Below, one piece after another: positions 53,821 to 57,410 of a DNA stretch of 64,000 nucleotides. Every line of letters begins with the position of its first letter. Positions within the stretch are counted from its first letter, which is position 1. The stretch is from an uncultured Ruminococcus sp. (GTDB taxonomy: Bacteria > Bacillota > Clostridia > Oscillospirales > Ruminococcaceae). The notes beneath the pieces are model-generated. The model did not search any database, was not told where the DNA came from, and saw only the letters and a list, made by a program, of their open reading frames with translations. The DNA lies in contig CAMCRP010000002.1 of the NCBI GenBank assembly GCA_945877315.1, positions 46,160-110,159 on the forward strand, given 5' to 3'. Made by a program: the position numbers and the translations under genes.

Positions 53821-54135
53821 TTGATTTCAACCTTCTTTTCTTTAATTTTATCCAAATACATATTATAAAAGATAATTATTGAAATTCTATGAAATCCTAT
53901 AGATTTTTGTTAGTTTGGTGAAAATTCGTGACGCCATATAATAAATGCTGAATGTTGTTAAATTGTTTTGTGCATTTTATCAGATTTACAGAAGCTACAG
54001 ACCGCACATAGGAAAATATCAAAAATGTGTGCTCCCCTGCCGAATACGGGAGAGTGCCATTTGTACCATTCGTACAATTTGGTATAAAATTTAACAGAAA
54101 AATCAAAATAAGTCACAAAATGCAAATAAAAGCTC

Positions 54136-54164
54136 TTGATTTTTTCGGCAGAGTATGTTATACT
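54136..54164 (+). promoter_or_regulatory. Promoter of the ubiquitin-domain gene
   Basis: TTGATT (54136-54141) and TATACT (54159-54164), spacing 17. It implies a leader of about 170 bases. The remainder of the gap 53821-54341 is AT-rich with no gene or clear hairpin that I can see. Confidence 0.65.
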
Positions 54165-54341
54165 TGTTTTGAACATATTTAACAGAAATATCACACTATA
54201 TTAAGAAAGTAAGCTGATTAAACATGATATTTGGCAGGCAACTCTTCTATATTAAAGTATAACGTCTTTCAAACTCTTTTGATAAGGGCTTTAAAGGTGC
54301 TTTTTGATTTTGGAGAAAGGAATGCTGAGAGGAGAACGGCT

Positions 54342-57300
54342 ATGAAAAGAATAATCAAAAGTATAGTTGTAACGGTAATGTCTATAATGCTTATTGCGGC
54401 AATGGGCATAACCGTTTCGGCAATGAAGATATTTGTAAAGACACCTGAGAGCAAGACTATTACAATAGAGGTAGAGCCGACGGACAGTATAGAAGCTATT
54501 AAGGGTAAGATAGAAGAGAAGGAAGGAATTCCTACCGATAAGCAAAGGCTTATATTTGCCGGCAAACAGTTGGATGAGGGCAAGACTCTTTCGGATTACA
54601 ATATTCAAAAAGAAAGTACGCTTCATCTTGTACTGAAAAGTGCAGGAGATTTGTCGGTAACAGGCGGAACTGAAAATACGGATTACAAGTACGAAAACAA
54701 TGTGCTGACTATTCTGACGGAAACGCCGCTGATAATCTCCGGCACAACCACGCAAGACCGTATTGAAGTTAAGGACGCCATTTCCGCAAATATTACCCTT
54801 GCAGGGGTGAATATTGACGTTTCGGGAACAAGTGGTGCTTGTGCATTCAAAATTGCGGACGACAGCACGGGAGATGTTACAATTACCCTAGCGGACGGCT
54901 CTGAAAACACGCTGAAAAGCGGTGAACATTGTGCAGGCTTGCAGAAAAATGGCGGCATAAGCACAGGTATGCTAATTATAACAGGAACAGGCTCTCTTGA
55001 AGCAAAAGGCAGTGAGTGTGGCGCAGGTATAGGAGGAGGAGAAGAAAAAAGCACTTCAAATATCACCATAAGCGGAGGAAACATTACTGCAAATGGTGCA
55101 TATTTAGGTGCCGGAATAGGCGGAGGTTATTTAGGCAGCGGAACAAATATAACTATAAGCGGCGGTATAGTCAAGGCAACCGGAGGAGCCTCCAGTGCCG
55201 GTATAGGTGGCGGATGCAACGGTGAAGGCAAGAATATAACCATAAGCGGCGGAATTGTTACCACTTCAACTGAGTATTATGGTGCAGGTATAGGAGGTGG
55301 TAGTAATGCTGAAGGCAATACCATCATAATAACCGGCGGATCTGTAATTGCAACGCCGGGTATGGATGCAAACGCTATCGGCGGCGGTTCCGGCAAGAGT
55401 GCAGTAATCCCCACCAACGGTTCAGACAATGTTTATCTCCTTGAAATCACAAACACAGACGGCTCAGCTATCACAATCAACGGCAAAGATTATCCTTCAA
55501 AACACAACGGCGAATCAAAGATATACGCATATCTCCCCGCAAAGACAGCAGCAGATCCCAATGTGGTAACCGTAGGGACAACTGCGAAAAAGTATTGCTA
55601 TGATACAGCCAATGCCAAGTGGCTTGAGGTAGTCGGTATTCCTGACGAGGACGAAACTGCATTTACCTATGACGGAAGGGCACAGACCTACACCATTGCA
55701 GAAAGCGATTATTACACAGTTACGGGCAGCACGCAGACAAACGTAGGCACTTATACGGTAACCGTTTCTCTAAATGATAAAGTAAACACTGTATGGAACG
55801 ACGGAACTATCGCTGGCAAGGAGTATGCTTTTATTATCGGCAAGGCAACTCCCACAGTTACGGTAACGGAAAGTCCCTCCTCTGCTATTACGGGAAAGGC
55901 AACAACCGTAACGTTAACAGCAGAAGTGAAGAATCCGAACAACGATTCGCTTAATGATTGTCCCTCGGTCGAATTTTTCTATAAGATCGGTAACGGTGCA
56001 GAAACACCTATTACAGACAGTTCTTTTGTAATTCCTGCCGACACACCAAACGGAACGACCTTCACAATTAGTGCAAGAACACCCGAAACTGCTAATTATA
56101 GCGCAGGAACAGGCACGACAACAATACTTGTGTCCAATTGCACACACCCCAATTTACCTGCTGAATGGGAAAATGACGAAACATATCATTGGCACAAATG
56201 CCCCGACTGCGGTGCAGAGGTTGACAAGGCAGAGCATTCTTCCAATGCCGCCGCAACCGAAACAACAGCCGAGGTCTGCAAGGACTGCGGATATGTAATG
56301 ACTTCCGCTCTCGGACATATCCATATAAATCATCTCACTCCCGTTGCGGAAGTCCCCGAAACCTGTACAACAGACGGCGTGAAGGCGCATTATAAGTGCG
56401 ACTGCGGTAAGCTCTTCGCAGACGATCGGGCAGCAACAGAGGTTACCCTTGCAGGTCTGAAAATACCCGCACATCACGCCTACGGCATAGAATGGGTAAG
56501 CGATAATGACGAGAATCATTACCACATTTGCTCCGTATGCGGCGATAAGACAGACGTTACCGCACACAGCTTCGACGAAGGCGTTATCACCTCCGAATCC
56601 ACCGAGAAAACCGAAGGTGTTCTGACCTACACATGCAAGGTCTGCGGCTACGAAAAGACGGAGTCTATCCCCGTTTTGACCAAGGAAGAAGCGGTAGTTT
56701 CCTTTGTTGACAGGCTTTACAAAAATATTCTGGGACGCATTCCCGACGAGAACAAGGCATCTCACATTGACAATCTGGAAAACGGAGTATCCGCCACAGA
56801 GGTTGCATATGATTTCGTGTTCAGCCCCGAATTTATCGAGCTGGACGTTACCAATGAGGAACGTGTAACAATTATGTATAACACCTTCCTTAACAGAGAT
56901 CCCGACCCCGAAGGTCTGGCAACTTGGACAAGGGTGCTTGACGAAGGCGATTCTATCGGACATATCTTCATCGGCTTCACACAGTCAAACGAGTTCGGTG
57001 AAATATGCGACGAGTACGGCATTGAACAGGGAACAATGGACTATGCCGATCTTCCCGACGAAAACAAGGAGCTTATAGCCTTCATTGCCCGTCTTTACAC
57101 AAAGGCGTTGGGCAGAGGCTATGACATTGACGGTCTGAACAGCCATAAGAACGGCTACATCAATGACCGTGACCTTTACAAGCTGGCATTTGACTTCATT
57201 TTCTCCCCCGAATATCTGGAGAAAAATCTCTCCGACGAGGACTTTGTTGAGAATATGTACGAGGTATTCTTCGACCGTTCCTCCGACCCCGCAGGCAAGG

Positions 57301-57410
57301 CGGACTGGCTGGACCGCATGGCAAATCAGGGCTACACCCGTGAGGACGTTCTGGCGGGATTTGTTGGTTCGCAGGAGTGTGCGGATATGGTGGCTGGGTT
57401 TGGTATCTGA
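54342..57410 (+). CDS. Secreted multidomain protein with N-terminal ubiquitin domain and DUF4214-like repeats
   Basis: A 1022-residue exported protein. Residues 1-27 are a signal peptide ending VSA; cleavage there exposes a domain (28-103) that starts MKIFVKT and ends [10 protein letters not shown], near-identical to eukaryotic ubiquitin. It keeps [27 protein letters not shown] and all seven lysines, but has GD where ubiquitin ends GG and Pro for Leu8. Residues 104-390 contain GAGIGGG units with TISGG strands, probably a beta-solenoid. MBG/Ig-like domains (about 430-600), a Cys-rich part with CPDCG, CKDCG, CSVCG and CKVCG (600-765), and two DUF4214-like blocks (770-1020) follow. ATG 54342 follows GGAGAA. 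Function unknown. Confidence 0.9.

Follow-up and report, generated by a model that had tools for sequence, protein, structure and literature searches.

A gene in the window (the whole 64,000-nucleotide stretch that was analyzed) encodes a bacterial protein in which a predicted signal peptide is followed directly by a ubiquitin domain close in sequence to the ubiquitin of Entamoeba. The architecture proved not to be a one-off, since ubiquitin-first proteins recur in many bacteria and are widespread on differing carriers. We tentatively read the window protein as an exported mimic, displayed at the surface with ubiquitin Met1 first, whose Entamoeba-like domain came from a gut protist and which, without being conjugatable, would bind a ubiquitin-recognising protein outside the cell; we give this interpretation as a whole slightly less than an even chance.

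Gene layout, ubiquitin domain and paralogs

The open reading frame (54342-57410, + strand) encodes 1022 aa: a signal peptide comes first, then the ubiquitin domain, next a predicted beta-helix and, at the C-terminal end, three DUF4214 domains. The predicted Sec signal peptide (27 aa; 54342..54422, + strand) has a basic start, a hydrophobic core and an AxA-type end, and its last residues (TVSA) adjoin Met1 of the ubiquitin domain (VSA followed by MKIFVKT), as had been noted in the sequence-only reading. Cleavage is predicted at this point, so that the mature N-terminus would be ubiquitin Met1 and the mature chain approximately 995 aa long; the protein is presumably exported. ORF residues 28-103 (54423..54650, + strand) aligned without gaps to human ubiquitin, with 55 of 76 positions identical, and shared 60 of 76 with the Entamoeba protein. 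The full protein matched PF00240 with E=4.2e-26 (90.9 bits against a Pfam cut-off of 25.4). Relative to human ubiquitin, the window domain carries the changes Q2K, L8P, T9E, G10S, L15I, S20T, T22S, N25A, V26I, A28G, Q31E, D32E, P38T, Q40K, E51D, D52E, R54K, R72K, L73S, R74A and G76D, while K6, K11, K27, K29, K33, K48, K63, I44, H68 and V70 are retained. Realignment thus reproduced both the count given in the sequence-only reading and every residue named there (the seven lysines, Ile44, Val70, L8P, R72K and the Gly-Asp tail).

The C-terminal Gly-Gly used in conjugation is absent from the window domain, whose tail reads KSAGD (G75-D76) and runs on into the carrier; residues 73-74 are altered too, beyond the loss of the last glycine. 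Given this tail and the C-terminal fusion, conjugation of the window domain is excluded, and the earlier statement to that effect follows from established knowledge. The I44 patch is the surface used by many ubiquitin receptors, and in the window domain its edge is altered by L8P and by the changes at positions 9 and 10. In an AlphaFold2 model built on 20 sequences, mature residues 1-70 had block pLDDT values of 89-96, and in Foldseek the domain matched ubiquitin chains, single-unit alignments mostly having an rmsd of 0.4-1.4 Å. The window domain therefore shows both the ubiquitin fold and the PF00240 profile match. A predicted beta-helix domain (54651..55367, + strand; PF18889 Beta_helix_3) abuts it, with modelled strands over mature-chain residues of about 77-315 (block pLDDT 64-95) in a run that begins right after ubiquitin; the remainder of the model was mostly poor (mean pLDDT 55.5).

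The C-terminal 241 aa comprise the three DUF4214 domains (56685..57407, + strand; PF13946 in three stretches, E=1.3e-41). The window protein matched 19 other places of the same genome reaching its C-terminal end (residue 1021-1022), and the triple DUF4214 tail (window 56685-57407 and these 19 places) is common to a large protein family within the genome. Since the tail recurs in paralogs of the genome, one of them a GH5 cellulase that also has a CBM65 domain, DUF4214 is likely a shared tail of exported proteins, through which surface attachment may take place. In one paralog, L108 on contig C38, the N-terminal portion contains BspA-type LRR and Ig-like domains. Its leader is 75% identical over 288 columns to the 5' leader of the window gene (54059..54324, + strand; presumed promoter region), and the carrier region of the window protein (54756..57410, + strand) is shared with it in pieces that are 68-89% identical; between leader and carrier, where the window gene has its signal peptide and ubiquitin, no match to L108 was found, so that the two genes differ by a swap of modules. 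L107, another paralog, has a comparable beta-helix region close to the N-terminus and no ubiquitin ahead of it. Within the leader, a promoter-like site (TTGATT-17-TATACT, the second hexamer preceded by TG; 54136..54164, + strand) is a candidate by consensus match alone (9/12), and sites of that kind numbered 14 in the region against 7.4 in shuffles.

Recurrence of presumably exported ubiquitin in bacteria

The window domain was the sole PF00240 match in its 3.3-Mb genome, and the other of the two genomes of the genus had none. Of 394 genomes searched in the order, 5 had matches over the cut-off, as did 5 of 391 in the class and 4 of 398 in the phylum, the window genome being counted each time; none of 14 control genomes had one. 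Two weak matches from the phylum (G824 and G862) were dropped, one giving E=0.0057 and no ubiquitin on follow-up and the other nothing, which left 11 proteins in 10 genomes. A scan of contigs with patterns taken from the window yielded 317 related coding stretches, the best 80 of which were retained. Many relatives belong to metagenome-assembled genomes; named-strain records among the scan matches were Ruminococcus albus 8, Cohnella sp. OV330, Dyella, Ohessyouella blattaphilus, Rhodopirellula maiorica and Candidatus Aquiluna. No named bacterial relative appeared among the best 120 matches listed per protein search, where eukaryotic polyubiquitin dominates, and a phage collection gave no match at E 1e-5. 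Models for E2 and DUB enzymes (PF00179 and PF00443) had no match in the window genome, nor did they match any control genome; the ThiF family (PF00899) had three matches in the window genome and also matched 12 of the 14 controls.

Eighty-eight of 97 candidates (96 plus the plasmid locus L119) were aligned. The set omits L033, whose domain has an in-frame stop, L055, truncated at a contig end, the ubiquitin-only L076, L078 and L112 (L026 and L042, of the same form, were kept), L113 (tandem ubiquitin without a signal peptide) and the near-copies L105, L116 and L117; some near-copies, e.g. L010/L089, remain in the set. Under simple rules (a hydropathy rule and the loose pattern [AVGSTIL]-x-[AGSC] before Met1, with no trained predictor), a hydrophobic stretch preceded the domain in 86 of the 88 proteins and a signal-peptidase-type motif ended exactly before Met1 in 82. 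The same junction was present in all 11 proteins of the less biased genome survey, 8 of which are also among the 88. As for the six exceptions, Met1 probably lies a few residues past the cleavage site in L050, L071, L074 and L079, L068 has no signal peptide, and the domain of L090 is internal.

What follows the domain is varied. Downstream Pfam matches among the 88 included autotransporter barrels (7), dockerins (6), Listeria-Bacteroides repeats (6), SLH domains (2) and Por secretion tails (2), and a diverged copy (44.9%) opens a gene of about 8 kb on a Pseudoalteromonas plasmid. In a Clostridia genome from water-buffalo rumen, two adjacent genes (L008:7033-8171) both encode signal peptide-ubiquitin proteins with similar carriers and two ubiquitin types, one Entamoeba-like and one not.

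Origin, age and selection

Among single-ubiquitin PDB chains, phmmer placed the window domain closest to 4gsw (119.5 bits, vs. 112.9 for human). The Entamoeba sequence used in the residue counts, taken to be that of 4gsw, scores the same as this chain against two queries (119.5 and 146.4 bits). Foldseek returned 4gsw, titled ubiquitin from Entamoeba histolytica, with 82% identity, the highest among the 50 matches listed, the other fully aligned single ubiquitins among them having 69-76%. The same entry serves as Entamoeba ubiquitin in PMC8588831. Over the 72 core residues, the window domain shared 59 with Entamoeba and at most 55 with the next best of 693 eukaryote-like units, which were cut from the protein-search matches listed (best 120 each). 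Animals and plants are heavily represented in this set, named protists are few and many units are unnamed, so that "Entamoeba-like" means the nearest sampled lineage. Eight residues distinguish Entamoeba from human ubiquitin (S20N, T22S, E24D, N25A, V26I, D32E, D52E and R54K). The window domain has six of these states and 13 of the 88 bacterial domains have all eight, while none of the 693 units has more than four.

Entamoeba was the nearest unit for 23 of the 88 bacterial domains, the window included, and six of the relatives (L003, L004, L005, L007, L011 and L052) matched it at 70/72 core residues and human ubiquitin at 62-63/72. The close relative L002 was nearest to another, unnamed unit (56/72, vs. 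55/72 for Entamoeba). Two survey copies, L127 (with the features KHITLEVE..DRIED..NTLQDYSIQ) and L123, were nearest to the metagenome protein P0339 (65/72 and 55/72, respectively), a type that is presumably parabasalid-like (Trichomonas).

The phylogeny was based on 167 rows and 72 columns, its eukaryotic part comprising 70 units picked for diversity from 326 that retain LRLRGG, together with a few extra units, Entamoeba and human. In the unconstrained tree, the window domain, 23 other bacterial domains and Entamoeba formed one set (98/87; bootstrap unsettled), and record titles place 15 of these 23 bacteria in the rumen or hind-gut of goat, sheep, deer or buffalo. Judging from its relatives, the source bacterium of the window likely lives in an animal gut as well. 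A tree with the window domain, L002 and L038 outside the Entamoeba group was equally good (lnL 1.43 higher, p-AU 0.56), and the hypothesis that the 24 Entamoeba-like domains of bacteria stem from one transfer was not rejected (p-AU 0.508). The other bacterial domains were interspersed among other eukaryotic types (26 label changes, against a shuffled mean of 70), which suggests several captures of ubiquitin by bacteria. Holding all 88 together cost 73 log units, and a single common origin of all bacterial copies is therefore disfavoured, though not rejected (p-AU 0.088). Nor did the tree place the window domain in an ancient bacterial ubiquitin-like lineage, the alternative that the sequence-only reading had named. 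Its proposal of a recent capture from a eukaryote, perhaps a rumen or gut protist, stands in part: the family is eukaryotic and the nearest sampled eukaryote is Entamoeba (82% vs. 69-76%), so that the domain was likely captured from a gut protist lineage of Entamoeba-like type, the direction presumably being from eukaryote to bacterium.

The word recent is not supported. Between the window protein and L002, pS was 0.53 for ubiquitin and 0.60 downstream (pN 0.114 and 0.246, respectively), and because these synonymous distances are similar, the domain appears to be about as old in the protein as the carrier. Its codon use points the same way, with a GC3 of 0.38 that lies within the block range of the gene (0.32-0.66); on these two grounds, a recent transfer was rejected.

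Eukaryotic contamination, also raised in the sequence-only reading, or an assembly chimera is practically excluded. High similarity to eukaryotic ubiquitin and the many metagenome-assembled relatives speak for it, but a single open frame holds signal peptide, ubiquitin and carrier, the independent genome L002 has the same architecture (55% over residues 1-479), and the 5' leader and carrier recur in a paralog of the same genome. Moreover, the signal peptide-ubiquitin arrangement is present in named strains, namely Ruminococcus albus 7 (plasmid pRUMAL01), R. albus 8, Cohnella, Dyella and Ohessyouella.

Fourteen pairs, some with a common member, were examined for selection, and in all 12 evaluable ones the dN/dS of the ubiquitin part (0-0.21) was below that of the following codons, several pairs having few changes. 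For L018/L052, pS was 0.45 and pN 0.029. Purifying selection on the ubiquitin part is thus strong in these comparisons, and the conservation could partly reflect constraint by the fold. The core is conserved and variation is greatest in the tail, Gly-Gly being retained in 5 of the 88; outside this set, LRLRGG is also kept in L076 and L112 (both ubiquitin-only) and in L121. The invariant run at positions 59-66 was discarded as a sign of selection, as YNIQKEST was among the search patterns that brought in L002-L081.

Candidate function and related systems

The closest described protein is BfUbb (gene ubb) of Bacteroides fragilis, set beside the window protein here by its description, the two sequences not having been aligned. 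BfUbb reportedly has 63% identity to human ubiquitin and a C-terminal Cys (PMC3352274), and is a free, secreted 76-aa toxin, B. fragilis being called "one of a few bacteria" with an exported ubiquitin (PMC5705921); its closest relatives were reported as entomopoxvirus ubiquitins in 2011 and giant-virus ubiquitins in 2017. The two proteins share a signal peptide that ends at Met1 (by sequence, for the window protein), high identity to eukaryotic ubiquitin, the lack of a usable Gly-Gly, a patchy distribution and a supposed origin from a eukaryote or its virus. They differ in that BfUbb is a free 76-aa protein ending in Cys and reported as closest to viral ubiquitins, whereas the window domain stands at the tip of a multidomain protein of approximately 995 aa, has no Cys after its final GD and most resembles the ubiquitin of Entamoeba. 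With the latter (E. histolytica, PDB 4GSW) it shares 59/72 core residues and six of the eight distinguishing ones, yet it belongs to a presumably exported bacterial fusion and has an unconjugatable tail and with L8P, T9E and G10S at the beta1-beta2 loop.

In the complete record of Ruminococcus albus 7 plasmid pRUMAL01, WP_013483628.1 ("ubiquitin family protein") likewise has a signal peptide, ubiquitin and then a carrier domain, but its ubiquitin is of another type (LEDDRTLADYN; nearest unit P0240, 67/72) and its carrier is different and smaller. The gene lies within a run of secreted-protein genes (L119:3787-8273), near those for a PI-PLC domain protein and a dockerin protein; one gene of the run is spore-coat-U-like by a match below the cut-off, and the four neighbouring proteins scanned had no ubiquitin domain. 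Among eukaryotes, the secreted ubiquitin of Globodera rostochiensis, as described in PMC5705921, also combines a signal peptide, ubiquitin and a C-terminal extension and is used outside the producing cell, but the producer is a eukaryote, the extension is short and cleaved, and the protein acts in plant hosts. Bacterial ubiquitin-conjugation systems (E1/E2/DUB) differ in being cytoplasmic with a Gly tail, while the window protein has a signal peptide by sequence and a GD tail. Listings of open-licence papers showed no description of multidomain surface proteins of bacteria tipped by ubiquitin, nor of an origin of the Entamoeba-like kind. Exported bacterial ubiquitin, in print a B. fragilis oddity, is here seen to recur across many groups of bacteria, and its donor type can be traced.

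The domain is under strong selection although mostly unconjugatable, which raises the question of who reads ubiquitin outside a bacterial cell. In the interpretation proposed above, removal of the signal peptide would expose Met1, and a beta-helix/DUF4214 carrier, likely held at the surface, would present the ubiquitin at its outer end. There the domain would be bound by a partner, not attached to one, as the donor surface is kept under selection while the conjugating tail is mostly lost. The predicted place at the mature N-terminus of exported proteins would put that partner outside the producing cell. We infer that such a partner exists and that it would most likely be a protein of a protist grazing on or living with the bacterium, or possibly of a competitor bacterium, as for BfUbb. 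Some features weigh against mimicry: certain proteins of this kind still have Gly-Gly, and the changes at positions 8, 9 and 10 would alter the edge of the I44 patch. Receptors that need L8 would bind the L8P form less well, which favours a narrower partner over a broad decoy. Moreover, we know of no ubiquitin machinery outside cells, and a decoy of the ubiquitin system thus faces a problem of topology.

An antibacterial module of the BfUbb kind, whose ubiquitin tip would bind an envelope protein of a competitor and harm it on contact or after release, seems rather unlikely for the window protein. According to PMC5705921, the signal peptide of BfUbb is cleaved exactly at Met1, the protein lacks its last glycine, and a synthetic version of 76 aa inhibits other strains of B. 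fragilis; a residue of a peptidyl-prolyl isomerase reportedly decides sensitivity (as cited in PMC12396204), and exported ubiquitin-only relatives were found here (L026, L042, L076, L078 and L112). The window domain, however, belongs to a mature protein of about 995 aa with a DUF4214 tail common to a cellulase, unlike a free 76-aa protein, and lacks the C-terminal Cys reported for BfUbb in PMC3352274. It is unlikely, too, that the fold serves only as a stable, protease-resistant cap or adhesive tip with no ubiquitin-recognising partner. The same cassette does occur on many unrelated carriers, in this genome it takes the position held by LRR and Ig-like modules in a paralog, and the conjugation-relevant tail is mostly lost; a pure scaffold would nevertheless be expected to drift more than a core and surface that stay near the donor (70/72 in six relatives) despite strong synonymous divergence, as in L018/L052.

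A wider hypothesis, which we regard as doubtful, is that gut bacteria repeatedly took the ubiquitin of cohabiting protists (Entamoeba-like, parabasalid-like and further types) as a "ubiquitin cloak" or decoy against protist ubiquitin receptors. It would be fused, mostly unconjugatable, as the first folded part of diverse surface proteins and moved between carriers as a signal-peptide-ubiquitin cassette. The answer to who reads ubiquitin outside the bacterial cell would bear on conflict between bacteria and protists in gut and rumen, on interbacterial antagonism and on the re-use of a eukaryotic signalling protein as a surface module.

Other forms of ubiquitin were also recorded. L026, L042, L078 and L112 (from Dyella, a deltaproteobacterial MAG and one viral contig) are exported ubiquitin-only proteins of BfUbb-like form. 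Another, L076 from Dyella sp. OK004, is 75/76 identical to human ubiquitin with a full LRLRGG tail, and is for that reason potentially conjugatable. An archaeal MAG (L068:7878-8441) encodes a domain that is 72/76 identical to human ubiquitin with no signal peptide, a possible contamination. Seven viral-contig loci were examined over the domain and its flanking residues. L113, from a viral contig, encodes ubiquitin units in tandem in a single frame and no signal peptide, like eukaryotic or giant-virus polyubiquitin, and three near-identical viral contigs (L114, L116 and L117) encode a signal peptide and ubiquitin followed by a short C-terminal tail that resembles a cell-surface sorting signal of the IPTL-CTERM kind.
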